This document shows positions 4,959 through 22,468 of a DNA stretch of 23,983 nt, in pieces. The position numbers and the translations under genes were made by a program. The notes under the pieces are model-generated. The model made no database searches and was not told the origin of the DNA. It saw nothing but the letters and a program-made list of their open reading frames with translations. The number at the start of each line of letters is the position of its first letter. Positions within the stretch are counted from its first letter, which is position 1. The stretch covers positions 1 to 23,983 of IMG/VR virus record IMGVR_UViG_3300044800_000429; one strand, 5' to 3'. The DNA is from a virus.

Positions 4959-5437
4959 CCAGCCGGAAGCAGATCATCAAGGACACTATCTTAAAGCGCC
5001 GGGGATTCTTTTCGCTCGACCAGATCGTTTTTGAAACTCATTATCCCCGCAACGCCGTCAGAGACATCCTTGCCGCCTTCGTCGCGGAGAGGGTGATCAC
5101 CGGCTCCATTGGCCGCCGGCCCAGAGGGGCCTCTGGCCCGGAGGGCTGCCCCGGAATATATCGGGTGAACCAGTCAGAGGAGGGCGAGGGGATCGCACTG
5201 AATCGGATGTGGAAAGTCATTCGTTACAAGGGAATATTCGAACTGGCCGATCTTATTAAACTGGCAAATGTGAAACGTGAGACGGCGCGCTCATTCATTA
5301 AGACGCTTCGAAAGGGCGGATTCATCAACCCGAGCAAACCCACGGGTCGAGGGGTTTTCTGGACGCTTGTTAAAGACCCTGGACCGAGAAGGCCGTATGT
5401 GGGAGACCAGGTGAAACGCAAAACGCATAGCGCATAG
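4955..5437 (+). CDS. Winged-helix DNA-binding protein with embedded repeat
   Basis: 160-residue protein that looks like two winged-helix modules: residues about 5-55 (GFFSLDQIVFETHYPRNAVR) and about 85-145 (FELADLIKLANVKRETARSF). Between them the segment GRRPRGASGPEGCPG is encoded by a copy of the GC-rich repeat (5111-5150), so the linker was built by a repeat. The last codons (KRKTHSA) come from an ACGCATAGCGCATA-type microrepeat. It is coupled to the ATPase gene by an ATGA overlap and belongs to the transposition/early operon. A regulatory or replication-accessory role is likely; I cannot name a family. Confidence 0.8.
   Translation: MTSRKQIIKDTILKRRGFFSLDQIVFETHYPRNAVRDILAAFVAERVITGSIGRRPRGASGPEGCPGIYRVNQSEEGEGIALNRMWKVIRYKGIFELADLIKLANVKRETARSFIKTLRKGGFINPSKPTGRGVFWTLVKDPGPRRPYVGDQVKRKTHSA
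5111..5150 (+). repeat. GC-rich hairpin repeat, copy 1 (in CDS)
   Basis: It begins GGCCGCCGGCCCAGAGGGG and continues CCTCTGGCCCGGAGGG. It lies in frame inside the wHTH gene and is translated as RRPRGASGPEG. The same sequence returns almost unchanged at 22432-22468 and 17339-17375. Confidence 0.85.
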
Positions 5438-5441
5438 GGCA
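5417..5441. repeat. Tandem GCATA microrepeat
   Basis: AAACGCATAGCGCATAGGGC contains three imperfect GCATAG units. It spans the last codons of the wHTH gene and the gap to the next start. Confidence 0.5.
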
Positions 5442-5448
5442 TAACGAA

Positions 5449-5619
5449 ATGAGAGTAAAAATTTTAGATCAGTCAATTTGTTTGCTCGGAGAGGGTAATG
5501 AGGTTTTAAAAATTCTCAAGCCAAAAGAGGTCTTGGTGCTCATAAAAGATTTACAACGTTCGCTATTTGACTATAAAAATTTAACGGGCAAAAAGATTGA
5601 CGAACCGCAGTGCTATTAA
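5449..5619 (+). CDS. Small hypothetical protein (56 aa)
   Basis: Short open frame starting MRVKILDQSICLLGEG and ending KKIDEPQCY. It has normal amino-acid composition and a good fit between its neighbours: it starts 11 bases after one stop and ends 10 bases before the next start. The middle (EVLKILKPKEVLVLIKDL) reads as amphipathic helices. No family is recognised. The Shine-Dalgarno is weak and partly in the GCATA repeat, so the start is less sure than the frame. Confidence 0.55.
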   Translation: MRVKILDQSICLLGEGNEVLKILKPKEVLVLIKDLQRSLFDYKNLTGKKIDEPQCY

Positions 5620-5629
5620 GGAGGCAATC

Positions 5630-5836
5630 ATGCAAGTCCGAAATACTTCAAGAATCGTAAATACGCCAGAACAAATTGTGCGAGAGTTTCGGATCAGAGA
5701 TCGCGGGGTAAGGATTGAATTTCCCGTATCTAAAGAACCTGTGTCAAAACTCGAGCGGGCGATTCAAATATTTCTGATCTTCGCCTTTGGCTATGGATTT
5801 GGGTACCTTCATCATTTTCTCGTCACGGCCCGATAG
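5630..5836 (+). CDS. Small membrane-anchored hypothetical protein
   Basis: 68-residue protein with a soluble N-terminal part (about 1-45) and one hydrophobic C-terminal segment (AIQIFLIFAFGYGFGYLHHF), presumably in the inner membrane. The ATG at 5630 has a strong AAGGAGG Shine-Dalgarno, which overrules an earlier TTG in frame. No known family; a middle-operon gene of unknown role. Confidence 0.7.
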   Translation: MQVRNTSRIVNTPEQIVREFRIRDRGVRIEFPVSKEPVSKLERAIQIFLIFAFGYGFGYLHHFLVTAR

Positions 5837-5888
5837 AAACGAAGTTTCACACGGGCCACGGCGAGATGACACTATACAGATGTTTAGT

Positions 5889-5924
5889 GGCTTCCGGCCC
5901 GTAGGGCCTACGGCCCGGAGGGAG
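5889..5924 (+). repeat. GC-rich hairpin repeat, copy 2 (upstream of start)
   Basis: It consists of GGCTTCCGGCCCGTAGGG followed by CCTACGGCCCGGAGGGAG. It ends in a GGAGGGAG Shine-Dalgarno seven bases before the ATG at 5932. The halves GGCCCGTAGGGCC and CTACGGCCC are partly self-complementary. Confidence 0.85.
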
Positions 5925-5931
5925 ATAAGTA

Positions 5932-6195
5932 ATGGAAATCAAAGGAGCGCTCACGATGGCGAAAGACGAGGGACGAGAGACGAGAGACGAAGGGCGTGAG
6001 GATCTCCGGTATTATCTCTCCTGTCCGCTGCGGAAGGGTCACCCTCGAATCGCAGTGACGGTCTGCCATAAACAAAAGTGCCTCTGGTTGACGACCGACG
6101 GCGGGAAAATGAAATGCGGTTACGGCGATCCAAATGCCAGTGTGGGCAATCGCCCCAAAATCAAAAAAATCTCACGTGATGACTTCCGGCCCTGA
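5932..6195 (+). CDS. Small Cys-containing protein with repeat-derived ends
   Basis: 87-residue protein. Residues about 30-60 carry CPL, CHKQKC and KMKC cysteines, a possible zinc knuckle. The N-terminus KDEGRETRDEGRED is encoded by a tandem GACGAGAGACGAG microrepeat. The C-terminal FRP and the TGA stop come from the next GC-rich repeat. The ATG at 5932 has the repeat-borne Shine-Dalgarno; an alternative in-frame ATG at 5956 has its own AAGGAG and would shorten the protein by eight residues. Function unknown. Confidence 0.65.
   Translation: MEIKGALTMAKDEGRETRDEGREDLRYYLSCPLRKGHPRIAVTVCHKQKCLWLTTDGGKMKCGYGDPNASVGNRPKIKKISRDDFRP
5957..5999. repeat. Tandem GACGAGR microrepeat (in CDS)
   Basis: Imperfect units of GACGAGAGACGAG lie near the 5' end of the small Cys protein gene and encode DEGRETRDEGRED. 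This type of short tandem repeat is usually intergenic. Confidence 0.6.
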
Positions 6196-6231
6196 GGGCC
6201 TACGGCCCGGCCTCCGGCTCGGAGAGAGGGA
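6182..6231 (+). repeat. GC-rich hairpin repeat, copy 3
   Basis: CTTCCGGCCCTGAGGGCC is followed by TACGGCCCGGCCTCCGGCTC and GGAGAGAGGG. It supplies the last codons and TGA stop of the upstream gene and a purine-rich stretch ahead of the next gene. Confidence 0.8.
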
Positions 6232-6245
6232 GTGATCTAAAATCA

Positions 6246-6280
6246 GATGGGGAGATGGGGAGGTCGGGAGATGGGGAGTG
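6246..6280. repeat. Tandem GATGGGGA microrepeat
   Basis: Units of GATGGGGAGATGGGGAG, then TCGGGAGATGGGGAG. The repeat contains both candidate ATG starts (6247 and 6271) of the zinc-ribbon gene. Confidence 0.6.
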
Positions 6281-6435
6281 TTCAAGAAAGAGTCCAGGAA
6301 TTTTTAGAATCGTGGCGACACGTCGCCGCGGTGGAGACTGCATTCTGCTCATGTTGCGGAACAGAACTCTCGGATGGAAATTTCGCCCTGATCGATGGGA
6401 TACTTTATTGTTTTAAATGCAGGCCGAAACCATGA
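6271..6435 (+). CDS. Zinc-ribbon microprotein
   Basis: 54-residue protein with two Cys pairs, CSCC near residue 26 and CFKC near residue 48, the classic four-Cys zinc-ribbon layout. The N-terminus is helical (VQERVQEFLESWRHVAAVET). The ATG at 6271 has GGGGAGG seven bases upstream. An in-frame ATG at 6247 would add eight residues read from the microrepeat and has no good Shine-Dalgarno. The stop overlaps the next start by four bases. The role is unknown; small zinc ribbons in phages are often nucleic-acid or protein adaptors. Confidence 0.7.
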   Translation: MGSVQERVQEFLESWRHVAAVETAFCSCCGTELSDGNFALIDGILYCFKCRPKP

Positions 6436-6752
6436 AAGTAAAAATCCACGGACCCGAAAGGGAATGGGGCGTCATCAGGCAGGGGATCTTCTGGATGGTC
6501 TTCTGTATTCTCCTTATTCTGGCCTCTTTTGAGTCGGGATGGATCCTCAGAAATCTCCAGATAGATGACACACAAAAGAGGGTCCTGAAATTGGAGAACA
6601 AATTCACGGACCACGACGGCCGGATCACCGTTTTAGAAGGCCGCCGGCCTGGCTTCCGGCTCGGGTTCCACCCCAGAGGAGGTTCCACCCCGGAGGGAGA
6701 GTCCTCCAACTCGGAGAGAGAGGCCTCTGGCCCGGAGGGGAAGAGAAAATGA
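6432..6752 (+). CDS. Membrane protein with repeat-encoded C-terminal tail
   Basis: 106-residue protein. A single hydrophobic segment (GIFWMVFCILLILASF, about residues 18-33) is followed by a short coiled coil (DDTQKRVLKLENKFTDHDGR), much like small phage inner-membrane proteins. From about residue 70 to the end the sequence GRRPGFRLGFHPRGG, then STPEGESSNSEREASGPEG, is a translation of the GC-rich repeat array (6640-6741). The original protein probably ended near residue 70. Both ends overlap neighbours by four bases (ATGA), so expression is coupled. Confidence 0.7.
   Translation: MKVKIHGPEREWGVIRQGIFWMVFCILLILASFESGWILRNLQIDDTQKRVLKLENKFTDHDGRITVLEGRRPGFRLGFHPRGGSTPEGESSNSEREASGPEGKRK
6640..6741 (+). 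repeat. GC-rich hairpin repeat, copy 4 (array in CDS)
   Basis: About five degenerate units in a row: GCCGCCGGCCTGG, CTTCCGGCTCGG, GTTCCACCCCAGAGGAGG, TTCCACCCCGGAGGGAGAG, TCCTCCAACTCGGAGAGAG and CCTCTGGCCCGGAGGGG. Most units form a TCC/GGA-type mini-hairpin. It encodes the C-terminal tail of the upstream membrane protein, and its last unit provides the Shine-Dalgarno for the ATG at 6749. Confidence 0.85.
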
Positions 6753-6886
6753 AGAGGACGATAAAGGACTTTTTAGGGCGATTCTGGAGAAAACATATCA
6801 TTGATGACTTCCCTTATCCGGATGTCTGTTTCGATTGTGATCTTCCCGATTGCAAAGGATGCGTTAATAGACATGGAACTAAATAA
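6749..6886 (+). CDS. Cys-rich microprotein (45 aa)
   Basis: Very short gene, MKRTIKDFLGRFWRKH at the start and CFDCDLPDCKGC near the end. Four Cys in two CxxC pairs suggest zinc binding; the N-terminal part is a basic amphipathic helix. It starts in an ATGA overlap with the previous gene behind a GGAGGGG Shine-Dalgarno, and its 3' end overlaps the next gene by 14 bases. Tight packing and coupling support it as real. Function unknown. Confidence 0.65.
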   Translation: MKRTIKDFLGRFWRKHIIDDFPYPDVCFDCDLPDCKGCVNRHGTK

Positions 6887-7265
6887 TCTCGAATCAACCA
6901 TTTTGCGCCTTCTCGAAGCCCATCAGGGCAGAGACTTTACTTGTTCGCGAGGGAGACTCGTCGAGAAGATCAATAATGGATGTGCCCCTCCCGATCAGAT
7001 CAACGAGCGCGAGATCCGGCGGGTCATCAAACACCTGGTCGAATCTCATGGTGAATGGATCGGCTCCTGTTCAAGGGGGTACTTCATGATCCAGACCGAT
7101 GAGGAGCTCCTGGCCGCCTGCAAATACTATCACGGCTATGCCATGAGTCTTCTTCACGTCGAGGCAAAACTGAGAAAAACGAGTCTGGCAACGTTGTTAG
7201 GGCAACTGTCAATGGAATTCGCCCCGGTGGAATACAAAGCCGATTCCACGGGGCAAGGAGGTTAA
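6873..7265 (+). CDS. Hypothetical winged-helix-like protein
   Basis: 130-residue protein. Residues about 1-70 (NLESTILRLLEAHQGRDFTC, then EREIRRVIKHLVESHGEWIG) read like a winged-helix domain, with the wing at about SCSRGYFMI. A helical tail follows. I chose the ATG at 6873 (MELNNLEST). A longer in-frame start at 6801 would overlap the Cys-rich microprotein gene over most of its length. It directly precedes the Gam-like gene. The role is probably DNA binding in the early/middle operon; no named family. Confidence 0.7.
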   Translation: MELNNLESTILRLLEAHQGRDFTCSRGRLVEKINNGCAPPDQINEREIRRVIKHLVESHGEWIGSCSRGYFMIQTDEELLAACKYYHGYAMSLLHVEAKLRKTSLATLLGQLSMEFAPVEYKADSTGQGG

Positions 7266-7266
7266 C

Positions 7267-7785
7267 ATGACACTCACTGAAATTGAACTGTTGGCGAGGA
7301 ATTTTTCTGATGCGAGATTAAATCTCAAAGAGGGTCTGGATGAACTCGAGACTGAGATCGCGGTTGTAAAGAAGCGATATCTTCCGGCGATCCGCCGTGC
7401 CGTGGAGAAGGCAGCCCAGAGGCACGAGGCACTCAGGGCAGCCGTCGAAGAAGCCCCGGAATTATTTCAGAAACCTAAGACCGTGATCTTTCACGGTGTA
7501 CGTCTTGGCTATCAGAAAGCCAGGGGCGAGATCACGTGGGCAGATACCGCCCAGGTCATCAAACTCATCAAGAAAAATTTCCCCGATCAGGTCGAAACGC
7601 TCTTAAAGATCGTCGAGACGCCGATTAAGACCGCACTGGCCCAGCTTTCGGTTGCGGACCTGAAAAGGATCGGAGTGACTGTGATCGAGACGGGCGATGA
7701 GATCTTTATCAAACCCACGGATTCCGAGATCGACAAACTGATCAATGCCCTACTGAAGGATGAGGAGTTAAACAAGGCCGCATAA
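7267..7785 (+). CDS. gam: Mu Gam-like host-nuclease inhibitor
   Basis: 172-residue member of the phage Mu Gam family, Ku-like proteins that bind double-stranded DNA ends and block exonucleases such as RecBCD. The long N-terminal helical region (about 15-65, LDELETEIAVVKKRYLPAIR) is followed by the typical FHGVRLGYQKARGEITW segment (about 75-92) and a C-terminal region with LKRIGVTVIETGDEIFIKP. Length and motif order agree with Mu Gam (174 residues). A strong AAGGAGG Shine-Dalgarno precedes the start. It sits directly before the GemA-type gene, in the middle operon. Confidence 0.9.
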   Translation: MTLTEIELLARNFSDARLNLKEGLDELETEIAVVKKRYLPAIRRAVEKAAQRHEALRAAVEEAPELFQKPKTVIFHGVRLGYQKARGEITWADTAQVIKLIKKNFPDQVETLLKIVETPIKTALAQLSVADLKRIGVTVIETGDEIFIKPTDSEIDKLINALLKDEELNKAA

Positions 7786-7786
7786 A

Positions 7787-8236
7787 ATGCCAATCCAAAA
7801 ACTTCTCGCCAAAATTCATATCGCCAAAAAGGAACTCGGCCTCGAGGACGAGATCTACCGGGACATCCTCTATCGGAAATTCAAAGTCACATCCTCCAAG
7901 GCGCTCTCGGACAGCCAGGCCCTGGTGTTGATCAACCACTTCAAGAATGTTGGATGGGTCCCGAAATCGAAACCTAAAAAATATGATGATCTTCCCCCTC
8001 GGGATTTGTACGATGCCAGTCCTGGACAACGTCGGTTAATCGAGGTCCTCTGGCATGATCTCTATCGAGGTAATGAGGAGAAAAAACACCTCCGGCAATT
8101 CCTCTGGAATCATTTCAAGGTTTCCGAGGTCAGATTCATCCGGGATAAGGACCTTGCCCATAAAGTGATCGAGGCGCTCAAACAAATGAAGAAAAGAAGA
8201 GGGGTTAGTGAACAGAGAAAAGTATCTTCTAACTGA
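7787..8236 (+). CDS. GemA/gp16-like regulatory protein
   Basis: 149-residue protein of the Mu gp16/GemA (DUF1018) family, recognised from the N-terminal block LLAKIHIAKKELGLEDEIYR and following residues, and from SPGQRRLIEVLWHDLYR (about 82-98). In Mu the product has been reported to affect host gene expression and DNA topology. It lies one base after the Gam-like gene, the arrangement seen in other Mu-like phages. Its 3' end overlaps the next gene by 29 bases. Confidence 0.88.
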   Translation: MPIQKLLAKIHIAKKELGLEDEIYRDILYRKFKVTSSKALSDSQALVLINHFKNVGWVPKSKPKKYDDLPPRDLYDASPGQRRLIEVLWHDLYRGNEEKKHLRQFLWNHFKVSEVRFIRDKDLAHKVIEALKQMKKRRGVSEQRKVSSN

Positions 8237-8792
8237 AGAAGAACTTAAAATTATTCGGGATTTTTACGATGGGACTACCATCAAGACGAACAAGATAATG
8301 CGACTGTTCGGCCACAAATATCCCCGCTGGTATGTTAAAAGGAAGGCCCAGGAGATGGGTCTTGCCCGCCTTTATAAGCAACCCGACTGGAGTGAAGAGG
8401 AAGTTTCATATTTACATAAATACTTTCCCTCAAAAGGATTTGTTGCCATCCAGAACGGCCTGAAAAGGATCAACGGAGGAATTCTGAGATCTGTAACCGC
8501 CATTGTTTTGAAAAAAAGGAGACTCCATATCAACAAAAGATCCGATGGGTTCACAATGCGCATGGTCGAAGAGATATTCGGGACCAATCATCACAAAATA
8601 GAGAAGTGGGTCCGCCTTGGATGGCTTCAGGACGGCCGCAAGGGGACCGAACGGACAAAAGTCCAGGGCGGGGACATGCACCATTTTAAATCAGAGAATC
8701 TCAGAAATTTTGCGATTAATTATCCCGAGGAGATCGATATTCGAAGAGTTGAAAAATGGACTTTCATTCAAATCGTCGCCGGCCAGATGTGA
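8208..8792 (+). CDS. Putative DNA-binding protein (SANT/HTH-like)
   Basis: 194-residue protein. The N-terminal half has two helical repeats that look Myb/SANT- or HTH-like (LTEEELKIIRDFYDGTTIKT; then DWSEEEVSYLHKYFPSKGFV). The C-terminal part, with MRMVEEIFGTNHHKIEKWV followed by RLGWLQDGRKG, resembles a MerR-type HTH. Such proteins follow GemA in several Mu-like phages and may be regulators. The start is a GTG with an AGAGGGG purine stretch upstream, overlapping the gp16-like gene. No catalytic motif seen. Confidence 0.75.
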   Translation: MNREKYLLTEEELKIIRDFYDGTTIKTNKIMRLFGHKYPRWYVKRKAQEMGLARLYKQPDWSEEEVSYLHKYFPSKGFVAIQNGLKRINGGILRSVTAIVLKKRRLHINKRSDGFTMRMVEEIFGTNHHKIEKWVRLGWLQDGRKGTERTKVQGGDMHHFKSENLRNFAINYPEEIDIRRVEKWTFIQIVAGQM

Positions 8793-8804
8793 TGGAGGTT
8801 GACA

Positions 8805-9029: not shown

Positions 9030-9049
9030 GCCCGAAAGGATAGGAAAAG

Positions 9050-9579: not shown

Positions 9580-9594
9580 TAAGTCTGATATATA
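9565..9594 (+). promoter_or_regulatory. Promoter for the RHH regulator gene
   Basis: TTGACA (9565-9570) is followed after 18 bp by TATATA (9589-9594), within a run of alternating AT. Transcription should start near 9602, giving a leader of about 19 bases to the ATG at 9621. The hexamers match those of the early promoter. Confidence 0.6.
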
Positions 9595-9620
9595 TATGCT
9601 GAACGGTTTAAATAGTATAA

Positions 9621-9798: not shown

Positions 9799-9821
9799 GA
9801 ATAAGTAGCAGGTACGGGAAG

Positions 9822-9874: not shown

Positions 9875-9885
9875 ATGGGCAGAAA

Positions 9886-10278: not shown

Positions 10279-10538
10279 CAGAAAAACTCGCTCAACAAAG
10301 GATCGATGCCGTGTTGAAAGAGGAAGATACCCTGGACCGGGTACTGGCGGCGCAGAATCAAAAAATCAGGGAATCGATCGGGAACTATAAATTCTGGCTT
10401 GCCATCGAGCTGCGGAAGGCGCACCAGGAGATCTTCCGGCTCGTCGAGGAAAGAGACCTCCTCATCAAAGAGAATTTAAAGATGAGGAATCAATTATTTC
10501 ACATCAAAGATTCCTTTAAAGCCGCCGGCCAGGAGTGA
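10275..10538 (+). CDS. Hypothetical coiled-coil protein of the lysis cassette
   Basis: 87-residue, highly charged and almost entirely helical protein (LEER/RKAHQEIFRLVEERDLL pattern), probably a coiled coil. There is no convincing transmembrane segment, so it is not a standard holin or Rz. The start is in an ATGA overlap with the endolysin gene. The last residues (AAGQE) and the TGA stop lie in a copy of the GC-rich repeat. Confidence 0.7.
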   Translation: MTEKLAQQRIDAVLKEEDTLDRVLAAQNQKIRESIGNYKFWLAIELRKAHQEIFRLVEERDLLIKENLKMRNQLFHIKDSFKAAGQE

Positions 10539-10557
10539 CCTCCGGCCCGGAAGGGAG
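10521..10557 (+). repeat. GC-rich hairpin repeat, copy 5
   Basis: GCCGCCGGCCAGGAG, then TGACCTCCGGCCCGGAAGGGAG. It contains the stop of the coiled-coil gene (10536-10538) and ends in AAGGGAG, the Shine-Dalgarno for the ATG at 10565. Confidence 0.8.
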
Positions 10558-12322: not shown

Positions 12323-12370
12323 GCCGCCGGTTCGGGTTCCACCCTGGTGGAAGGTCCCCCCCGGCGAGAG
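12323..12370 (+). repeat. GC-rich hairpin repeat, copy 6
   Basis: GCCGCCGGTTCGGG, then TTCCACCCTGGTGGAAGG and CCCCCCCGGCGAGAG. The middle unit is a clean hairpin TTCCA/TGGAA. It lies ten bases before the ATG at 12380. Confidence 0.75.
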
Positions 12371-12700: not shown

Positions 12701-12999
12701 TGGCAAAATATACGAATAGAAGTCTGAGACGCGACATTCTTCGCACCCTTAATTACGTTCCCCTCACGCCTTTCCGTGCCATCGCAGTCCTGAACGCCTT
12801 GAGGCCGACCGGCTACGACGATCTTACCACAGCGACCCTGGAGGGACAGATCAACTATCTGGTGGAAAAGGGATACATCAAGAAGAAGACGGCGAAAAAC
12901 GAAATCCTCGGAGAAGAGATCGAACTCATACAGATCACGGCCAAGGGAATCGACCTTCTCGAAGGCAACTGTTCGGACGTTGGAGTGGCATGTGGCTAA
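12700..12999 (+). CDS. Winged-helix protein, Mu gp26-like position
   Basis: 99-residue protein with a winged-helix pattern: RDILRTLNYVPLTPFRAIAV helices, a recognition-helix region (TATLEGQINYLVEKGYI) and a beta wing (ELIQITAKGIDLL). It precedes the small terminase, the place of gp26 in Mu-like phages. The ATG at 12700 is chosen over the TTG one codon upstream because AAAGGAG is well spaced. It probably binds DNA or is an accessory packaging factor. Confidence 0.75.
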   Translation: MAKYTNRSLRRDILRTLNYVPLTPFRAIAVLNALRPTGYDDLTTATLEGQINYLVEKGYIKKKTAKNEILGEEIELIQITAKGIDLLEGNCSDVGVACG

Positions 13000-13561
13000 A
13001 AAAGCTTCCAGCCCGGAGGGGCTTCCAGCCCGGAGGGAGTATTCCTTCGAGATCGTCGACAAATGTGAGGGCCTTTACGTCCAGGAAGAGAAAAGCCTCG
13101 AGGCCGTAGCGAAAGAAAGTGGCGTCTCGGTACCGCAGATTCAGAGATGGGCGAAGAAATACGAATGGAAAAAGAAGAAAGAAGAATTCAGACAGAGATC
13201 GATGAAGGCCCAGGAGGAATCACGCGCCCTGATGCGCGAAGAGATCCTTCTCGAAGACCTGGTCCACCAGCGCGACCTGATGAAGAAATTTTTCGAGGGC
13301 AAGGAGATCATGGAAAAGGGCGATACCCAGATGATGTACGCCTATACGAACGTGACCGATTCCATTTGCAAGATCCTGGCCGATATGAGGAAGCGAGATG
13401 AGTCACTCCGCAACGCTAAAAAGATTGATCGGCCTCAAATATTTTTGGAATTTATGCGCGATCTCGTTTCGTTTCTTAAAGATCATGATCCGTCTGCGCT
13501 TACGGCACTGGAAAAGAACTTTGATGAATTCATAGGATTCGCGAAGACGAAGTATTCTTAG
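12992..13561 (+). CDS. Terminase small subunit (Mu gp27-like)
   Basis: 189-residue protein. An HTH (LEAVAKESGVSVPQIQRWAK, about 37-56) is followed by a basic patch (KKYEWKKKKEEF) and a long helical region, the layout of terminase small subunits and Mu gp27/DUF1804-type proteins, which recognise phage DNA for packaging. The start is most likely the GTG at 12992, overlapping the previous gene by eight bases. The first residues after VAKK (ASSPEGLPARRE) are the translation of two tandem copies of the GC-rich repeat, so the natural N-terminus was extended or replaced. Confidence 0.8.
   Translation: MAKKASSPEGLPARREYSFEIVDKCEGLYVQEEKSLEAVAKESGVSVPQIQRWAKKYEWKKKKEEFRQRSMKAQEESRALMREEILLEDLVHQRDLMKKFFEGKEIMEKGDTQMMYAYTNVTDSICKILADMRKRDESLRNAKKIDRPQIFLEFMRDLVSFLKDHDPSALTALEKNFDEFIGFAKTKYS
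13004..13039 (+). repeat. GC-rich hairpin repeat, copy 7 (tandem, in CDS)
   Basis: Two near-identical units GCTTCCAGCCCGGAGGG(G/A) in direct tandem. They lie at the 5' end of the small terminase gene and are translated as ASSPEGLPARRE. Confidence 0.85.
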
Positions 13562-14240: not shown

Positions 14241-15926
14241 ATGAAAAAATCACCGGTCACCGAAAAGAAGTTTGACTTAGAGATCGAGGCGATCCGCGCC
14301 CTGATCCAGACCTCTGCGAAACCCTTCCCGGATGACAAGAAAAAGCAGGAGGAAAGGATCAGTAAGGCCTCCGGCGATCTCGAATTCTTCGGACGCACCT
14401 ACTTCCCGCACTACATCGAGGCGCCATCATCGGCCTTTCATCACTACATTTGCGACCGTTATCCCGCAATGATCCTGCGGTCCATCGATACAGTCATGGG
14501 TGACAGGGAGGCCGATGCCGCCCCCCGGGGCAATGCGAAGTCCACATGGGTTGACCTCGTCCTGGCACTCTGGTGTGTCGCCTTCAAACTACGCCATTTT
14601 ATTCTCATTGCCAGTGATACGGCCTCGCAGGCCGAGGACTTCATTCAGTTCCTCAAAGCAGAGATCGAAGTCAACGAGCGTCTTGCTCAGGACTTTCCGA
14701 GAATCTGCGGCCAGGGGCCGATCTGGCGGGTCGATACCATCATCACCCGCAGCGGCGTCAAAATCCGGGGAGTGGGCGCCGGACAAAAACTCAGAGGCAT
14801 GCGCCACGGATCTAAAAGGCCCGATCTCGTCATTGGCGACGATCTCGAAAACGATGAGGCCGTGGAATCTCCGGATCAAAGAAAAAAGATGGAGCGCTGG
14901 TTCTTCAAGGCCCTCATGAAGATCGGCCAGAAGAACACGGTCTATATCGTTCTCGGCACCATTCTCCATTATGATTCGCTTCTCAATAATCTCCTTAACA
15001 AGCCCGGGTGGAAGGGGAAGAAGTTCAAGGCCGTCATAAAATATTCCGAATCGAAACTATGGGAAAGATGGGAAGAGATCTTCGTCGATATCTCCATCGG
15101 CAAAGAAGAGGCCGAGGCGGCGGCTGACAAGTTTTTTGCCACCCATAAAATCGACATGCTCGCAGGCGCGGAGGTCCTCTGGCCCGAGGTAGAGGATTAT
15201 TATTACCTCATGAAAATGCGGATCTCCGATGGACCCGCCTACTTCGAATCCGAGAAACAGAACGAGCCGATCAACCCCGAAGACGCCGTCTTCCTGGAGG
15301 AATGGATTACCTACTGGGATGACGAGAATCCGGATCTTGCAGATGTCGGTCATTACGGTGTTGTCGATCCTTCTCTTGGAAAATCATCGAAGACCAGCGA
15401 CCCCTCGGTGATTGTCGGCGGCAGAACAAAAAAACTCGGAGAGGGGATGATCATTTATCTCGATATCGGCGATGTCGAAAAAAGACTTCCCGATAAAATC
15501 ATCGACAATATCCTCGCCTACCATCAGCGCGATAAATTTCACGCCTTCGGAGTGGAATCGACACAGTTTCAGGAATTCTTCAGGACCACACTCGAAAAAG
15601 AGGGCCATAAAAGGAACTTAACGATTCCTACGATCGAGCTTCAGGTCCATAAAGATAAAGACCTCCGGATTCTTACGCTCCAGCCCTGGATCAAGAACGG
15701 CTGGATCCGTTTCAGAAAAAACATGCGCGAGTTGGTGAGGCACTTCATCTATTACCGGCCGAAGGGGAAAGGCGGACACGATGACGGCCCCGATGCGGTC
15801 GAACAGTTAAAAACCATGATCGAGAGCCGAGTCGGCCCGATCGAATACCGGACGACAGGAGTGAAGCGGGAATCCACGAGAATGGGTTCTTATGTGCCAT
15901 CCTCTGCCAGGGTTGAGGGATATTAA
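14241..15926 (+). CDS. Terminase large subunit (Mu gp28-like)
   Basis: 561-residue packaging motor. The ATPase domain has a Walker A-like APRGNAKST (about 94-102) and Walker B DLVIGDDLE (about 195-203). The C-terminal RNase-H-like nuclease has D376 (VVDPSLGK), GVEST near residue 437 and the HDDGPDA motif (D514/D515, D518). It couples ATP hydrolysis to filling of proheads and makes the packaging cuts. Length is in the range of Mu gp28 (551 residues). It follows the papain-like peptidase gene by ten bases. A perfect stem-loop follows the stop codon directly. Confidence 0.93.
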   Translation: MKKSPVTEKKFDLEIEAIRALIQTSAKPFPDDKKKQEERISKASGDLEFFGRTYFPHYIEAPSSAFHHYICDRYPAMILRSIDTVMGDREADAAPRGNAKSTWVDLVLALWCVAFKLRHFILIASDTASQAEDFIQFLKAEIEVNERLAQDFPRICGQGPIWRVDTIITRSGVKIRGVGAGQKLRGMRHGSKRPDLVIGDDLENDEAVESPDQRKKMERWFFKALMKIGQKNTVYIVLGTILHYDSLLNNLLNKPGWKGKKFKAVIKYSESKLWERWEEIFVDISIGKEEAEAAADKFFATHKIDMLAGAEVLWPEVEDYYYLMKMRISDGPAYFESEKQNEPINPEDAVFLEEWITYWDDENPDLADVGHYGVVDPSLGKSSKTSDPSVIVGGRTKKLGEGMIIYLDIGDVEKRLPDKIIDNILAYHQRDKFHAFGVESTQFQEFFRTTLEKEGHKRNLTIPTIELQVHKDKDLRILTLQPWIKNGWIRFRKNMRELVRHFIYYRPKGKGGHDDGPDAVEQLKTMIESRVGPIEYRTTGVKRESTRMGSYVPSSARVEGY

Positions 15927-15950: not shown

Positions 15951-16040
15951 ATTAGACAGATTCAAAAAGAGAGATTTCACAAATTTTTATTTAATCGGCG
16001 TAATCATTTTTTTTTAATCAGTGTAATCAACGAACGGAGT
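15951..16040 (+). repeat. ATTACACAG-type repeat, copy 1
   Basis: Starts ATTAGACAGATTCAAAAAGA and contains GATTTCACAAATTT, TTAATCGGCGTAATC and GTGTAATCAACGAA. It belongs to the same family as 20381-20462 and 23689-23770. Its 3' end (ACGGAGTGAG) runs into the Shine-Dalgarno and start of the portal gene. Confidence 0.8.
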
Positions 16041-16045
16041 GAGTG

Positions 16046-18247
16046 ATGGTGGTCAATCGAGCCAAAAAGAAGCCAATCACCGACGAGATCGCAACCGTAG
16101 AGAAGGACATCTTCCAATATTATTTGGGAAAAGTCCTGATGAACCCCGATACGGTACTCTCTTCGGAAGCCAGGGGCGATGGCCTCAAACTCTATGAGGA
16201 TCTCGAGCGCGACGACCGGGTCTTCTCTGAAATGCAGAAGCGAAAGTTGGCCGTGGTGGGTAAAGAGTGGGAAATCGAGCCTGCGAGCGAGGATGCGCAG
16301 GATGTAAAAATAGCGGAGTTCGTCGAGAATAATTTCAAGGAGATCAAGTTCGATCGCGCCTGCGAGGAGATGCTCGATGGTATTCTCAAAGGTTTTAAAC
16401 CGGCAGAAATTATGTGGGACTATTCCGAAGGCGACATCTGGATCAAGGAATTTCGAGGACGCGATCCCCGCCGCTTCACGTTCGATACGCAAAATAATCT
16501 TCGTCTTCTCACCTGGGCGAATATGATCGAAGGCGAAGAGATTCCAGAGCGGAAGTTTCAACTCTTCCGATTCGGAGAAAAAAATAATAATCCTTTTGGC
16601 ACGGGCCTTGGGAACAAACTTTACTGGCCGGTCTGGTTCAAAAAGAACGGGGTGAAATTCTGGGCGATCTTTCTCGAAAAGTTCGGCCAGCCCACTCCCT
16701 GGGGAAAATATCCATCCGGCATCGATAAGGCGCTGCAGGACAAACTTCTCGATGCGATCAAATCCATGCAGACCGACGTCGGGATCATCACTCCGGAAAA
16801 TATGAGCATCGAGCTCCTTGAAGCCGCGCGCACGAGTAATGTTGATAGTTACGGGGTGTGGGGCGATTTCTGGAACACCGCCATCACGCTCGTCATCCTC
16901 GGCCAGACGGCCACGACCGTCGGCACTCCCGGAAAGCTCGGAAACGAAGCGGCGCGATCCGAGGTGCGGCAGGATTATATCAAGGCCGATGCCGACAGGC
17001 TCAGCGAGTGGCTCAACGAGCAATCGATCAAGTGGTTAGTCGACTATAATTTTCCTGATGTAAAAAAATATCCCAAATTCTGGAAGCGCACCGAGCTGGA
17101 GGAGGATCTCAAGCCTCTTGCCGAGCGCGATCAGATCATCGTTAAAAATATCGGCGTGCCGGCAACGAAAAAATATTTCTACGACACCTACGGGATCCCC
17201 GAGCCTCAGGCCGACGAGGAGTTGGTGACCGTCCCACAGACCCCCAATCCTTTCGGCCAGCCTCCCTCCGGGGCGGAACCCCCTCCGGGGTGGAGCCCGG
17301 CGCCCCTCGGATTCGCCGAGAGAGGATTTGGGAGATTGGCCGCCGGCCCTGTAGGGCCTCTGGCCCGGAGGGGATTTAGGAAGATAGGGAGAAAAAAATC
17401 ACCCCATCACGAGTCACGAGTCACGAGTCACGAGTCACGTTTTGCTGAAACCGATTGGGTCTCCTGGTATATCGATCAACTCGGCCCTTCACTTAAAAAC
17501 ATCAAGGCCGATGCCCTGGCAAAGATCGAGACCTATTTGAGATCTCAGTCTTCTCCCCCGCCGGAGGAGGAATTTACTTCCACCGTCCAGGGGATTCTCG
17601 GCGATGCCTATCAAAATATCGACAAGGTCGCCGTGGCCGAGGCCGTGACCGGAATCTATCAGGCGGTGAAGGGCATTGAGGCAGCGGTCGGGTTCGGAGG
17701 CGCAGATGTAAGAGCCATCAATTTTCTTTCGAGCCTCGATCATTTCTATCTCTCGAAATTTATCGAGAACCCGGATGCCCAGGCTGCGCTCACGGATTTT
17801 TTAAAGACGCGGTACCTCGAAGGAGGGCAAGGTCTATTCGGGGCCGGAGATCCGGCGGCGATCGCAGAGATGAAAAATCTCCTTTCCCAGAATTTGACGG
17901 ACCTCGAAGGATATCAAATCAACCGGATCGTTGACACGGGTGTGGTGAAAATAAAAAACTGGGCGCATGTGTCTCAGTTCAACGATGCGGGCATTGCGGA
18001 GATCGAAATCGTCGAGCCAACGATGGAGTGCCCCTTCTGCGCCATGATGAACGGGAAGATCATCCAGGTCCCCGTGGCCTACAAAAATATGATGGATCAG
18101 GCGAATATGACGGACGAGGAGTACCAGCAATTTTTACAGGATAATCCCCCGGAGTTAGACGGCATCGAAAATTATGTGGATCAGGGAATGTTACCTCCGT
18201 ACCATCCTCACTGCCGGGGTCTCATTATAAAGAGGATCGTCGCCTAA
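16046..18247 (+). CDS. Fused portal (DUF935, gp29-like) and MuF-like minor head protein
   Basis: 733-residue fusion. Residues 1 to about 395 are a DUF935/Mu gp29 portal protein (FQYYLGKVLMNPDTVL; GFKPAEIMWDYSEGDIW; EKFGQPTPWGKYP; a helical stem and TYGIPEP end). The portal is the DNA channel at one capsid vertex. Residues about 470-733 are a MuF/gp30-like minor head protein, ending in the typical ECPFCAMMNGKII and PPYHPHCRG motifs. The approximately 65 residues between are low-complexity and come from the GC-rich repeat (PPSGAEPPPGWSP; GPVGPLARRG) and a CGAGTCA tandem repeat (HHESRVTSHESR). Mu has two separate genes here. The ATG at 16046 follows a GGAG at the end of a repeat; a GTG one codon earlier is possible. 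It overlaps the next gene by one base. Confidence 0.9.
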   Translation: MVVNRAKKKPITDEIATVEKDIFQYYLGKVLMNPDTVLSSEARGDGLKLYEDLERDDRVFSEMQKRKLAVVGKEWEIEPASEDAQDVKIAEFVENNFKEIKFDRACEEMLDGILKGFKPAEIMWDYSEGDIWIKEFRGRDPRRFTFDTQNNLRLLTWANMIEGEEIPERKFQLFRFGEKNNNPFGTGLGNKLYWPVWFKKNGVKFWAIFLEKFGQPTPWGKYPSGIDKALQDKLLDAIKSMQTDVGIITPENMSIELLEAARTSNVDSYGVWGDFWNTAITLVILGQTATTVGTPGKLGNEAARSEVRQDYIKADADRLSEWLNEQSIKWLVDYNFPDVKKYPKFWKRTELEEDLKPLAERDQIIVKNIGVPATKKYFYDTYGIPEPQADEELVTVPQTPNPFGQPPSGAEPPPGWSPAPLGFAERGFGRLAAGPVGPLARRGFRKIGRKKSPHHESRVTSHESRFAETDWVSWYIDQLGPSLKNIKADALAKIETYLRSQSSPPPEEEFTSTVQGILGDAYQNIDKVAVAEAVTGIYQAVKGIEAAVGFGGADVRAINFLSSLDHFYLSKFIENPDAQAALTDFLKTRYLEGGQGLFGAGDPAAIAEMKNLLSQNLTDLEGYQINRIVDTGVVKIKNWAHVSQFNDAGIAEIEIVEPTMECPFCAMMNGKIIQVPVAYKNMMDQANMTDEEYQQFLQDNPPELDGIENYVDQGMLPPYHPHCRGLIIKRIVA
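17259..17306 (+). repeat. GC-rich hairpin repeat, copy 8a (in CDS)
   Basis: GCCTCCCTCCGGGGCGGAACC and CCCTCCGGGGTGGAGCCCGG units. It is translated as PPSGAEPPPGWSPA in the portal-MuF linker. It closely resembles 21339-21382 upstream of the capsid gene. Confidence 0.8.
17339..17375 (+). repeat. GC-rich hairpin repeat, copy 8b (in CDS)
   Basis: GCCGCCGGCCCTGTAGGG, then CCTCTGGCCCGGAGGGG. It is translated as AAGPVGPLARRG. It lies in the same linker, 30 bases after copy 8a, and is nearly the same as copies 1 and 11. Confidence 0.85.
17407..17441. repeat. Tandem CGAGTCA repeat (in CDS)
   Basis: Four units of the 7-mer CGAGTCA/CACGAGT (CACGAGTCACGAGTCACGAG...), translated as HESRVTSHESR at the end of the portal-MuF linker. 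Confidence 0.8.
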
Positions 18248-18699: not shown

Positions 18700-18702
18700 T
18701 GA

Positions 18703-18948: not shown

Positions 18949-18954
18949 CCGAAA

Positions 18955-19018
18955 TGGAGGGTGTTTCAAAGGTGTTTTGAGGGTGTTTCGAGGGTGGATT
19001 GAGGGTGGTTTGTTTGGG
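18955..19018. repeat. Tandem GAGGGTGTTT-type repeat
   Basis: Five or six degenerate units: GGAGGGTGTTTCAAAGGTG, TTTTGAGGGTGTTTCG, AGGGTGGATTGAGGGTGG. It fills most of the gap between the HTH gene and the protease gene. The gap also has CCCTTTCGACAGACTCAAGG, which resembles a common CCCTTCGACAxGCTCA repeat. Confidence 0.7.
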
Positions 19019-19064
19019 TAACACAAAGGTCACTGACCCTTTCGACAGACTCAAGGAGGTTTTT

Positions 19065-20378
19065 ATGGATTTGATCGAGATCTTTAAGGCTGGCACTCAT
19101 ACCGACTCAAACGGTCAGACCCGGGAGTGGACGGAAAAGGACCTCCAGGAGATTGCATCATTATATAATCCTGCACTCCACGAGGCCCCGGTTGTGATCG
19201 GCCACCCCGAGACCGATTCCCCGGCCTATGGCTGGGTCGAATCCCTGAAGGCCGAAGGAGGGAAACTCCTGGCCAAACTAAAAGATATTGCCCCGGAATT
19301 CAAAAACTGGGTCAAACGCGGACTATATAAAAAGGTTAGCGTCGCTCTTTATCCCGACCTTGGACTCAGGCATATCGGATTCCTCGGGGCAACCCCGCCC
19401 GCAATCAAAGGACTTAAACAGGCGAGTTTTTTGGAAAAGGCAGCCTGGATCATTGTGGAGGATATCAAAATGGCAAACCAATCAACAGAAAAGCAGGATC
19501 AAGAAGCGCGCTCGAAAAAATATAACATTGCCATCAAGGACGGCGGCCACGTCACCAAACCCGGGGAATGGTCGGGCGTTTCGGATGACGATTTTCTTGA
19601 CCCTGTCAATTATCGTTATCCATGCCCGAATGCAGATCAGACCAGGGCGGCTGCATCTTACTGGGGCCATCCCGACAACCAGGCGCAATATTCAAGCGAA
19701 GAAAAGGCGTTAATCAGTAAGCGCCTTGCGGCTAAGGAGAAACAATACAGTATTGGTCAACCACAAAAACAAGGAGGTACGAAGATGAAAGAATTTTTTG
19801 AAAAGATGAAGGCCCTTTTCACCGAGGCCGAGAAAGAACTCACTCCGGATCCCAACCGGAAATTCACCGAGGCAGACATCCAGGCCGCAGAGAAACGCGT
19901 TAAGGATGCAGCCTTCGCCGAGACCGAGAAATTGAAAAAGGAAAAGGGCGAGGCCGAGGCAAAGGTGAAAAAGATCGAGGACGAAAAGCGAAAGGCCGAG
20001 ATCACGGCCTTCTGCGAAGGGCTTTGCAAAGAAGGAAAACTCACGCCAGCACTTCGGAAGATCATCGAACCCATCATGGTCAGCGTTTCCGAGAGTGCCG
20101 AGCTCATCGAGTTCAGCGAAGGCGTGAAAAAATCCCGACTTGAGGGGATCAAAGATTTTCTCACCGAGATCCCGAAGGTCGTGACCTTCAAAGAAGTCGC
20201 CGGAGTCGCGGGTCCGGGAAGCGGTGGATCGGCAGCCGAGAAACTTTCGGTCCTGGTCAAGACGAAGATGGAAGCGAAGAAGGATCTCTCTTACGGCCTT
20301 GCTTTTTCAGAAGTGCAGAAAGAGAATCCCGAACTGGCAAAAGAGGCATTAGCAGAAATCAGACCCAAAAAGGAATAG
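19065..20378 (+). CDS. Mu I-like prohead protease with scaffold domain
   Basis: 437-residue protein. The N-terminal domain (about 1-130) matches the Mu gpI protease: AGTHTDSNGQTREWTEKDLQ and HEAPVVIGHPETDSPAYGW; such proteases mature the prohead and remove the scaffold. A second domain (about 145-215, IAIKDGGHVTKPGEWSG; DPVNYRYPCPNADQTRAAAS) looks like the DUF6582-type module often found in phage proteins. The rest (about 240-437) is a charged coiled coil typical of scaffolds. The ATG at 19065 has AAGGAGG upstream. Two in-frame internal starts are visible: 19785 with AAGGAGG (see nested entry) and, weaker, 19471 with GGAGG. Confidence 0.88.
   Translation: MDLIEIFKAGTHTDSNGQTREWTEKDLQEIASLYNPALHEAPVVIGHPETDSPAYGWVESLKAEGGKLLAKLKDIAPEFKNWVKRGLYKKVSVALYPDLGLRHIGFLGATPPAIKGLKQASFLEKAAWIIVEDIKMANQSTEKQDQEARSKKYNIAIKDGGHVTKPGEWSGVSDDDFLDPVNYRYPCPNADQTRAAASYWGHPDNQAQYSSEEKALISKRLAAKEKQYSIGQPQKQGGTKMKEFFEKMKALFTEAEKELTPDPNRKFTEADIQAAEKRVKDAAFAETEKLKKEKGEAEAKVKKIEDEKRKAEITAFCEGLCKEGKLTPALRKIIEPIMVSVSESAELIEFSEGVKKSRLEGIKDFLTEIPKVVTFKEVAGVAGPGSGGSAAEKLSVLVKTKMEAKKDLSYGLAFSEVQKENPELAKEALAEIRPKKE
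19785..20378 (+). CDS. Nested in-frame scaffold protein (Mu Z-like)
   Basis: 197-residue protein read from an internal ATG in the same frame as the protease. A perfect AAGGAGG lies seven bases before this ATG (MKEFFEKMKALFTEAEKELT), much stronger than chance inside a gene. In Mu the scaffold gpZ is produced from an internal start of gene I, and lambda Nu3 within C is similar. The product is an almost purely helical, Lys/Glu-rich coiled coil (AEKRVKDAAFAETEKLKKEK), ending in EIRPKKE. It would assemble the prohead and be cleaved by the protease. Confidence 0.75.
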   Translation: MKEFFEKMKALFTEAEKELTPDPNRKFTEADIQAAEKRVKDAAFAETEKLKKEKGEAEAKVKKIEDEKRKAEITAFCEGLCKEGKLTPALRKIIEPIMVSVSESAELIEFSEGVKKSRLEGIKDFLTEIPKVVTFKEVAGVAGPGSGGSAAEKLSVLVKTKMEAKKDLSYGLAFSEVQKENPELAKEALAEIRPKKE

Positions 20379-20380
20379 AC

Positions 20381-20462
20381 GATTACACAGATTAAAGAGC
20401 CAGATTTCACAGATTTTAATCGGTGCAATCTCGGTTTTGAAATCGCTGTAATCAGCGAAGCA
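20381..20462 (+). repeat. ATTACACAG-type repeat, copy 2
   Basis: GATTACACAGATTAAAGAGC, GATTTCACAGATTTTAATCG, then GAAATCGCTGTAATCAGCGA. It occupies the whole gap between the scaffold and the first cement-like gene; a strong AAAGGAGG follows directly. Confidence 0.85.
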
Positions 20463-20475
20463 AAGGAGGAAAATC

Positions 20476-20865
20476 ATGTCATGGGAAAAATTAGGCTTAG
20501 TTCTTTCGTTTCCCGCTGATGAAGACCTGCGGCTTTATCAATATTGCGGTGTCGTCATGACGGCAACCGGCACGGTAAGGCTATCCAATGCCATTACGGA
20601 TATCTGCATAGGGATTTTGCAGAACACACCCAACACTGGTGAAGAGGCCGTGGTAGCCATGATCAGCGGAGGAGGCATTTCAAAATGTGCCCTCGCAGCC
20701 ACCCTGGCAAGGGGAGTTCTTGTCGCCAATGAATATGTCGGCGCGGCCGACAATGGAAAATTGAAAGCAACCCCAGCCACCGCTTACACGGTCGGGATTC
20801 TTCTCGAAGGCGGGGATGAAGACGAACTCGGGTCAGTCCTTCTTGGGAATGTTGCCGTAATTTAA
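20476..20865 (+). CDS. Capsid decoration/cement-like protein, paralogue 1
   Basis: 129-residue protein with a small beta-rich fold pattern, similar to the DUF2190-type capsid cement proteins found between scaffold and capsid genes of many tailed phages (IGILQNTPNTGEEAVV; the AYTVGILLEGGDEDE ending before VLLGNVAVI). It starts MSWEKLGL behind an AAAGGAGG. A paralogue of the same length follows. It would bind the outside of the capsid shell. Confidence 0.75.
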   Translation: MSWEKLGLVLSFPADEDLRLYQYCGVVMTATGTVRLSNAITDICIGILQNTPNTGEEAVVAMISGGGISKCALAATLARGVLVANEYVGAADNGKLKATPATAYTVGILLEGGDEDELGSVLLGNVAVI

Positions 20866-20882
20866 GGCAATGACCTAAGGAA

Positions 20883-20921
20883 AGGCCTCTGGCCTGGAAA
20901 GGCCTCTGGCCCGGAAGGAGG
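20883..20921 (+). repeat. GC-rich hairpin repeat, copy 9 (tandem)
   Basis: AGGCCTCTGGCCTGGAAA and GGCCTCTGGCCCGGAAGGAGG. Two units in tandem, the second ending in the Shine-Dalgarno for the ATG at 20927. Confidence 0.85.
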
Positions 20922-20926
20922 TTATC

Positions 20927-21316
20927 ATGGCTTGGGAAAAAAACCAGATATGTTTATCTTGGCCGGCGGCAGCCGATCTCAGACTCCATCAATTTAAGGC
21001 TGTGGTCTTAGGCGCCGCTGGGACGGTGAATCTCCCCATGACAGACGTCACCCAGAAGGCCATAGGAATCCTACAAAACCAACCAAATCTTGGCGAGGAA
21101 GCGGTCGTGGCAGTCTTGGGAGTTTCCAAGGCAATAGCCAATGCGGCCATCAATGCAGGAGTCTTGGTCTCACCCGAATGGGTTGATGATGTGGGAGATT
21201 CAGGGAAAGTAGGAGCAACCGTCGCGACAGCTTACACTTTGGGAATCACTCTCTCGCCGGCAGATGCAGAGGATGACGTTATCAGTGTTCTCTTGGGGAA
21301 CATAGCGGTCATCTAA
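20927..21316 (+). CDS. Capsid decoration/cement-like protein, paralogue 2
   Basis: 129 residues, the same length as paralogue 1 and aligned along its whole length with it: MAWEK vs MSWEK, the shared IGILQN, GEEAVVA and the SVLLGN(I/V)AVI ending. The DNA has diverged well beyond a fresh duplication. Either the two decorate different capsid sites or one has a new role. It is separated from copy 1 by a GC-rich repeat that carries its ribosome-binding site. Confidence 0.75.
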   Translation: MAWEKNQICLSWPAAADLRLHQFKAVVLGAAGTVNLPMTDVTQKAIGILQNQPNLGEEAVVAVLGVSKAIANAAINAGVLVSPEWVDDVGDSGKVGATVATAYTLGITLSPADAEDDVISVLLGNIAVI

Positions 21317-21338
21317 AATTTATCTAAAAAACTAAAAA

Positions 21339-21424
21339 AGGCCTCCCTCCGGGGTGGAACCACTCCGGGGTGGAACCTGGCCTGGAAGGGCGCCGCCCTG
21401 GAAGGGTTCCGCCCTGGAAGGAGG
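21339..21424 (+). repeat. GC-rich hairpin repeat, copy 10 (array)
   Basis: Units GCCTCCCTCCGGGGTGGAAC, CACTCCGGGGTGGAACC, TGGCCTGGAAGGG, CGCCGCCCTGGAAGGG and TTCCGCCCTGGAAGGAGG. The last unit ends in AAGGAGG, the Shine-Dalgarno of the major capsid gene. The stems vary in both arms (TTCC/GGAA). Confidence 0.85.
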
Positions 21425-21432
21425 ATTTTAAA

Positions 21433-22413
21433 ATGCCACAACCAGCACCGAAATCAGGAGTTCCAACGATACTCCAAAACGTGAGTGTGCAGTATAGGAA
21501 TCCGATCTATGTAGCGGATCGGGTTTTTCGAATGATCGACAATTGCCCTCCGGAAGCCAAGATCGCCCGTTATCTCAAGGGCGCCTGGTTTCGCGATGAG
21601 GCAGGGTTGAGAGGACCCGGAGGCGAGGCAAGAAGGGGCGGGTATCCCGTCGATTTTCTCGATGTGATCCCCAAGGAGTATGCCTTCGCGAAAGAAGTCA
21701 CCGATGAGGATCGGGATTTGGCTTCTTCTATGGGCGGCCCTCCGCTTCAACCTGATATGGATGCCATCGCCTTCGCGACAGACAAGATCCTGATGAAGAG
21801 AGAGATCCTTTGTCAGGACATCATCGACACCACAGTGTGGTCAGGTGTGGCAGCGACCGGAGAGGATGCCGCAGGTTTATGGGCTGTCCTGGATGCGACA
21901 AATACCCTTCTACTCGATGTGGAGGCAAGAAAGGTCACCATTCAATCGGCAACGGGATTAATGCCAAATTGCCTACTGATGGATAATTTGACCTACTCTG
22001 CCGCCAAACAAGTTCCTATGATTCTTGATTTGATCAAATATACCCAGAAAGGCGTTTTGACCACGGACCTCCTGGCTTCTATCCTTGACCTTGAAGAGGT
22101 CATTGTTGCCCCGGCGATTTACAGTTCGGCAAAAGAGTTGAAGACCGGCCTTGATTTCACGGCGGCCCAGATCTGGGCGACCACAACGGGTCATGGAATG
22201 GCTTTTCTCTTCTATCGGCCACCGGTAGCAGGGTTAAAACAACCTGCAGCAGGATATATCGCGAGGTCAAGTCTTTTCCCTGGAGGCGTGAGGGTTGAGA
22301 CTTGGAGAGAAAATTCAAAGCATCAAGATGTCTATGAGGCCGCAGAAAAGATTCACACCCTGGCAACGGGTCTGGATCTCGGCTTTCAATGGCACGATAC
22401 ATATCTAACGTAA
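21433..22413 (+). CDS. Major capsid protein
   Basis: 326-residue protein at the major capsid position, after protease/scaffold and cement genes and before the gp36-like connector. It starts MPQPAPKSGVPTILQNVSVQ and includes an RNPIYVADRVF segment and the DFLDVIPKEYAFAKEVTDED region expected of an HK97-fold N-arm/E-loop protein. The assignment is by position, length and general character; I cannot assign a precise family. The AAGGAGG comes from the repeat array. The frame is open upstream to 21370, but that part only translates the repeat and is not used. Confidence 0.82.
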   Translation: MPQPAPKSGVPTILQNVSVQYRNPIYVADRVFRMIDNCPPEAKIARYLKGAWFRDEAGLRGPGGEARRGGYPVDFLDVIPKEYAFAKEVTDEDRDLASSMGGPPLQPDMDAIAFATDKILMKREILCQDIIDTTVWSGVAATGEDAAGLWAVLDATNTLLLDVEARKVTIQSATGLMPNCLLMDNLTYSAAKQVPMILDLIKYTQKGVLTTDLLASILDLEEVIVAPAIYSSAKELKTGLDFTAAQIWATTTGHGMAFLFYRPPVAGLKQPAAGYIARSSLFPGGVRVETWRENSKHQDVYEAAEKIHTLATGLDLGFQWHDTYLT

Positions 22414-22431
22414 AAGAAAAATAGGGAGATA

Positions 22432-22468
22432 GGCCGCCGGCCCAAGAGGGCCTCTGGCCCGGAGGGGA
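22432..22468 (+). repeat. GC-rich hairpin repeat, copy 11
   Basis: GGCCGCCGGCCCAAGAGGG, then CCTCTGGCCCGGAGGGG. It follows the capsid stop and is not directly upstream of a start. It is joined to a small TGGGGAGAG/TTCTCCCCA hairpin (22471-22492). Confidence 0.85.

Follow-up and report, generated by a model that had tools for sequence, protein, structure and literature searches.

A short palindromic element inserted in 16-nt units at Shine-Dalgarno sequences and hairpin tips of phages, Desulfobacterota and Patescibacteria

Short palindromic repeats are common in bacteria, and the movement of those without a transposase is an old question. The small dispersed repeats of cyanobacteria are very small and are thought to be mobile without an enzyme of their own, and we know of no case in which they split a Shine-Dalgarno sequence (SD). 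Rickettsia palindromic elements are longer than the element described below, restricted to Rickettsiales and tolerated in frame inside protein genes. Here we analyse a GC-rich palindromic element of 32-33 nt that recurs through a 23,983-nt stretch of viral DNA (IMG/VR record IMGVR_UViG_3300044800_000429, positions 1 to 23,983; the window). It shares tolerated in-frame insertion in protein genes with the Rickettsia elements (mentioned in PMC3767692), from which it differs in its size and in being found mostly outside Rickettsiales, and it differs from the cyanobacterial repeats (cited in PMC3116915) in sequence and hosts.

Repetitive extragenic palindromic (REP) sequences of the GTAG type have a conserved unpaired GTAG tag, a stem usually of 6-9 bp and a loop of 2-3 nt; they are extragenic and high-copy, flank the gene of a REP-associated tyrosine transposase (RAYT), an arrangement called a REPtron, and form head-to-head or tail-to-tail dimers, head-to-tail ones being rare (PMC3733652, PMC3116915). 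Some are inserted inside palindromes (PMC3733652). Our element resembles REP and REPIN sequences with their RAYT in its short hairpins, covarying stems, high-copy dispersal, frequent pairing and occasional position inside palindromes, but it is built of head-to-tail 16-nt units, inserts within genes and SDs, and has phage copies. The nearest parallel in behaviour is the GC clusters of yeast mitochondria, which merge, are exchanged between species and, in the case of GC42, target the dinucleotide AG (PMC4478555). Both are GC-rich palindromes (the clusters of about 40 nt) with a dinucleotide target, empty sites, merging units, exchange across species and no known mobiliser; the clusters, however, belong to organelle DNA, have another sequence and no SD link, and our element targets G or GG. 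Literature searches with the sequence string returned only unrelated animal and plant subjects, and searches by concept returned REP, REPIN and GC clusters, not this family.

We interpret the element as a non-autonomous mobile palindromic micro-element, similar to REP sequences or GC clusters, whose CGGAGGG tail heals the SDs that it splits (probability roughly 0.7). It would insert in one orientation, behind a G or GG, where the target is rich in purines or forms the tip of a hairpin, typically the loop of a host palindrome (TTTGG^A or TTTGG^C; the caret marks the insertion point) or an SD core (AAGG^AGGTGA). An insertion that splits an SD would rebuild it beside the start codon with the terminal GGAGGG, so that insertions could be tolerated in gene-dense genomes such as those of phages and Patescibacteria, where the interrupted gene may keep working. 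The terminal GG of each unit would allow the next one to be attached, so that arrays could grow in steps of 16 nt (n x 16). The rebuilding of the SD by the tail can be read from the sequence; the rebuilt SD would probably function, and single-stranded DNA is the presumed substrate.

The repeat is strongly enriched in the window, where the 16-mer GCCTCTGGCCCGGAGG has 14 matches at up to 3 mismatches against 0.18 expected, a number reached in 0 of 100 shuffles. Each unit spans about 16 nt, CC-(loop NNN)-GG-CCC-GGAGGG, and its stem is completed by a G or GG that the target or the preceding unit supplies. The element usually moves as two head-to-tail units, a dimer 32-33 nt long, CCGCCGGCCCNNNNGGGCCTCTGGCCCGGAGGG. 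In host chromosomes, 68 distinct copies follow GCCGCCGGCCC-NNN(N)-GGGCCTCTGGCCCGGAGGG, 33-34 nt counting the first G, that is, two units of 16-17 nt, in each of which a purine tail comes after a short stem closed by a triloop. Insertion sizes are quantal, close to n x 16: 16 nt in the phage contig L200, 32 nt in L198/L379, Patescibacteria (candidate phyla radiation, CPR) and hosts, and 33, 48 and 80 nt elsewhere.

Covariation supports a hairpin GGGCC-TCT-GGCCC with a 5-bp stem and a triloop, the CGGAGG tail lying outside the stem. Among 37 distinct units, 31 cells were changed on both sides of a pair, against 10.0 +/- 2.3 in shuffles (0/500 as many) and at most 7 for slid structures; because these units were selected manually with attention to loop and tail, the count is evidence for the stem without being a blind test. 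Examples are GGCC-TCT-GGCC, GGTT-TCG-AACC, AACC-TCT-GGTT and GGGT-TCC-ACCC. With units taken by array spacing and no stem requirement, 45 of 65 distinct units had at least 3 of 4 pairs (31 expected, maximum 39 in 1000 shuffles). The arm read in the earlier note, pairing CCTC with GAGG, is energetically possible but has no covariation support, the loop and tail columns being nearly invariant. Rfam gave 0 matches above the gathering score in the window.

Exact empty sites in sister phages, host palindromes and CPR orthologues support the mobile mini-element that the earlier note had proposed as one of two options. By gene content, adaptors included, the window is a Mu-like phage (Table 1), and its database entry is a virus record without a host genome. 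Of the 75 viral relatives given by a terminase search, L198 has the closest terminase (93%); over 2.9 kb of the early region, L373 and the window are about 80% identical. Before the head gene, L004 is empty (AAAAAAGG^AGG), L200 holds one 16-nt unit (AAAAAAAGG(CCACTGGCCTGGAAGG)AGG), and the window holds 80 nt between AAAAAAGG and AGG. L379, the contig of L198, carries exactly 2 x 16 nt before another ATG, AAAAGG(CCGCCGGCCTGGAAGG)(CCTCTGGCCTGGAAGG)AGG. The target at 6182-6229, CACGTGATG^GAGTG, is uninterrupted in L373 (CACGTGATG^GAGTGGTC) and in L006 (CGAGATG^GAGTGATC). At 5113-5145 the insertion comes after ATTGG, and L373 encodes GSIG-HPGIYRV; it also differs by a few residues just upstream, and the net length difference is 18 nt. 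The inverted composites at 17260-17301 and 21333-21388 match, at 88-90%, an array that L373 carries elsewhere; composites therefore move as blocks. Phage L009 has a host-type palindrome with the element inside. Among GenBank phages no match to the element was found, and among plasmids a single weak partial one.

The element is not phage-specific. The earlier note had named absence outside this contig as a refutation; instead, copies occur in Desulfobacterota metagenome-assembled genomes (MAGs) and in several Patescibacteria, and a scan of 84,980 species genomes gave at least 115 stretches with the element. The note described a repeat that has spread through the phage; units are at all eleven loci listed, but the family also extends across host chromosomes and other bacteria. 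Deltaproteobacterium RBG_16_49_23 (G001) has 62 exact copies of the 14-mer CTCTGGCCCGGAGG (0 for the reversed control); the counts are 5-18 in five related MAGs (G002 18, G003 12) and 6 in each of two Levybacteria. Any copy at all was found in 27 of 395 genomes of the Desulfobacterota phylum, several copies in few of them, and in 6 of 82 genomes of the Levybacteria order. Lone matches in high-GC genomes (Streptomyces, Pseudonocardia and others) have no further part of the element with them and look like chance.

In host chromosomes the copies sit at the tips of other palindromes, not at starts. Across 390 kb of G001, palindromes like CCCCTCTTT...AAAGAGGGG have empty loops of 3-4 nt in 43 cases (three families) and loops of 35-37 nt with the element in 11; a few have other lengths. 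The sequence of the empty loops is GGA, GGC or the reverse, and the insert follows GG, which is why filled sites go on with A or C. Complementary flanks of at least 8 bp enclose 72% of host copies, compared with 5.8% of random places and with 43% when partners are swapped, the latter figure reflecting repeat families shared among copies. BLAST searches for orthologues of host loci mostly returned the composite repeats themselves.

SD cores are the other preferred place. Of the 21 CPR elements, 9 lie at an SD core, e.g. GAAAGG^AGGTGAAAATTATG, whereas just 0.4% of RG dinucleotides fall at such sites. The CPR gene of L052 is filled in its own genome, AGAAGG(32 nt)AGGTGAACAAGATATG, and 17 relatives (49-74% identity) have uninterrupted purine-rich SD sequences. 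We counted ATG codons 2-20 nt downstream, ATG only, since a version with GTG and TTG had too high a background. The association is strong for CPR elements, which have such an ATG in 9/27 cases in their own orientation and 0/27 in the opposite one (background 0.065); for phages the excess is modest (7/29 and 3/29, background 0.105), and in Desulfobacterota chromosomes there is no association (2/86 and 8/86, background 0.102). Random placement with respect to starts, which the earlier note had given as a refutation, holds in host chromosomes and fails in CPR. The SD link thus belongs to compact genomes and depends on which targets are hit and which insertions are tolerated. Both at hairpin tips and at SD cores, G or GG is the preferred short target on the left, as seen at empty sites, which are free of the left-G requirement of our search pattern.

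The explanation that survives best beside ours concerns the mobiliser and overlaps with it, and we give it a substantial minority chance: replication error without any transposition enzyme, in which short GG/CC matches allow fold-back or template switching that copies units from near or distant hairpins and builds arrays in place. Growth by n x 16, inverted arrays, GG at both junctions, hairpin-tip insertion and the absence of a transposase from our findings all fit. However, one and the same 32-33 nt dimer, identical in its inner sequence, recurs at many unrelated sites and in different phyla. A copied source is therefore needed, and single insertions cannot stem from purely local slippage.

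Membership in the GTAG/RAYT family of REP sequences is improbable. A short hairpin with a covarying stem, a GGAG-like tag and high copy number in some hosts speak for it, as do the within-palindrome insertions of some REPs (PMC3733652) and the presence of Y1 transposases in all nine genomes tested. But the bases before the second hairpin vary (ATAG, AGAG, CGAG, AAGAG, TGAG and AGAGC among the 68 host copies), and no conserved adjacent GTAG was found. The triloop fits; the stem is merely 4-5 bp, its outer pair often broken, against 6-9 bp in REPs. Units are head-to-tail, unlike REP dimers, and do not flank the RAYT genes examined. On the extragenic, high-copy habit of REPs the picture is mixed, with 62 exact copies in G001 and some copies inside genes in the phage.

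Still less probable is the other option of the earlier note, a portable translation-start module whose hairpin and SD are selected for raising or regulating downstream translation and which spreads for that reason. Correctly oriented elements lie exactly at the SD of four phage genes, as do 9 of the 21 CPR elements, and the head-gene leader is strongly structured, folding as RNA into one long hairpin (-66.2 kcal/mol, z -5.5). In that leader, however, the SD is paired rather than freed, so the array may reduce initiation. Sister phages and orthologues manage without the element, further copies lie in coding sequence or at 3' ends, and the frequency before ATG in host chromosomes is below background. 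A start module thus remains only as a consequence of insertion, and the element is best read as a passenger rather than a dedicated translation module. Assembly artefact or contamination is most unlikely: most records are metagenome assemblies, but they are independent, neighbours differ per copy, alleles with single-copy flanks differ by exactly the insert, and CPR copies sit in an AT-rich native context with a variant of their own (CCACCGG).

Several points weigh against a mobile micro-element that heals split SDs. No mobilising enzyme was identified at RAYT loci or among genes between neighbouring copies. A RAYT as mobiliser was rejected by location, because 30 PF01797 loci in the nine genomes have no flanking units within about 1.5 kb, the one lone unit-like match lying about 1 kb upstream on one side only; an autonomous element bounded by two copies was rejected because the genes between neighbouring copies are ordinary or housekeeping ones. 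Many host copies travel inside larger repeats of about 100-170 nt, so not all are independent insertions. Most window leaders other than that of the head gene fold no better than shuffles of the same composition. Finally, loci were gathered with a pattern that included the CGGAGG tail, and the junction search demanded a G before the element, so the constancy of both is partly by construction; empty sites are not affected.

For the micro-element, two candidate mobilisers would both fit, a HUH/Y1-type transposase acting in trans and template switching during replication. We regard as doubtful, somewhat below replication error in general, a bolder version in which a self-healing 32-nt palindrome targets the SD core (AAGG^AGGTGA), rebuilds the SD with its own tail and has spread among phages, Desulfobacterota and Patescibacteria in a way that has no known precedent in bacterial repeats, perhaps copied by template switching on single strands with no transposase involved. 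In this family the empty sites are clean, the unit size is fixed, the target is defined and there is a survival route inside the ribosome-binding site, so that both its mobilisation and its effect on translation are directly testable. The sharing of one micro-element by phages, Desulfobacterota and Patescibacteria is also relevant to gene exchange with poorly known candidate phyla.

Within the window, GC-rich hairpin units are present at all eleven loci, singly or in arrays with a spacing of 16-17 nt (Table 1). They were thought always to follow the transcribed orientation, which is wrong, because four strict units lie on the minus strand (17266-17298, 21347-21378), each set facing forward units. 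Of the seven starts said to have units just ahead of them, four clearly take their SD from the element (6749, 10565, 20927, 21433); ATG 5932 is doubtful, since the alignment with L006 favours a start at 5956 that has an SD of its own, and at 6271 and 12380 the start-adjacent bases are not a unit's tail. The remaining loci lie within coding sequence (5113-5145, 13004-13037, 17264-17372), at a gene 3' end (6182-6229) or between genes (22434-22466).

Table 1. Elements and genes of the window (ORF, open reading frame; L numbers, contigs compared with the window)
Feature	Position	Strand	Remarks
33-nt element, 2 units, in frame in regulator gene (ORF 4955-5437)	5113-5145	+	GSIG-RRPRGASGPEG-CPGIYRV
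2-unit element, 9 nt before ATG 5932	5890-5922	+	start uncertain; 5956 likelier (L006 homology)
48-nt (3 x 16) insertion, 3' end of ORF 5932-6195	6182-6229	+	empty in L373, L006
Array of several units, extends C-terminus of ORF 6417-6752	6641-6740	+	absent in L373 (GAGGGGCCTCCAAGGAAGGGGAAATGA); last tail GGAGGGG is SD of ATG 6749
2-unit element; tail GGAAGGGAG is SD of ATG 10565	10522-10554	+	absent in L198 (AACAAAAGGAGACCCTCATG), L373
Degenerate array before ATG 12380	12323-12369	+	SD without clear tail origin
Two identical 17-nt units, N-terminal coding part of DUF1804 gene (ORF 12980-13561, PF08822)	13004-13037	+	tandem repeat, 100% match; absent in L198, L248
Two reversed units, portal gene linker (ORF 16043-18247)	17264-17298	-	L198, L263, L253, L199 lack these units but have other repeats at the same linker
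33-nt element, same portal linker	17340-17372	+	absent in L198, L263, L253, L199
Two units (17 + 16 nt) in SD of ATG 20927	20886-20918	+	GGAAAGG(...)AGG; L004 uninterrupted, AAAGGAGGT
80-nt (5 x 16) array in SD of major head protein gene (ATG 21433)	21342-21421	+	
Two reversed units within head-gene array, other units forward	21347-21378	-	
33-nt element, purine-rich intergenic tract	22434-22466	+	
Transposase	1970-4318		phrog_310
MuB/TniB-like ATPase	4284-4958		
Gam	7267-7785		
Terminase	14241-15926		
Mu portal	16043-18247		
Head protein	21433-22413		

A second dispersed repeat (GATTACACAGATTAAAGAGC...TTTAATCGGTGTAATCA...GTAATCAACGAAG) occurs three times, each copy just before a gene start (15966-16034, 20381-20460, 23688-23769); related text precedes an ATG in L373, and this may be another start-lodged repeat. 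At the portal linker (17240-17440), L198, L253, L263 and L199 each have different short repeats or palindromes, read through in frame, and the linker looks like a landing place for host repeats. A palindrome-like repeat at 22503-22563 (GTGTCATTCTGAGCGGAGCGAAGAATCTCTGAGATCCTTCACTTCGTTCAGGATGAC) looks like a host intergenic type. The adjacent 129-aa genes at 20476-20865 and 20927-21316 look like a duplicated pair before the head protein gene, with the element in the SD of the second only. Seven-base tandem repeats lie in reading frames at 17407-17439 and 5960-5990 (TCACGAG, CGAGAGA). Outside the window, the GC-rich (67%) viral contig IMGVR_UViG_3300042196_000313 (L005), probably from another host group, contains the unit and its variants in many copies, oriented both ways.

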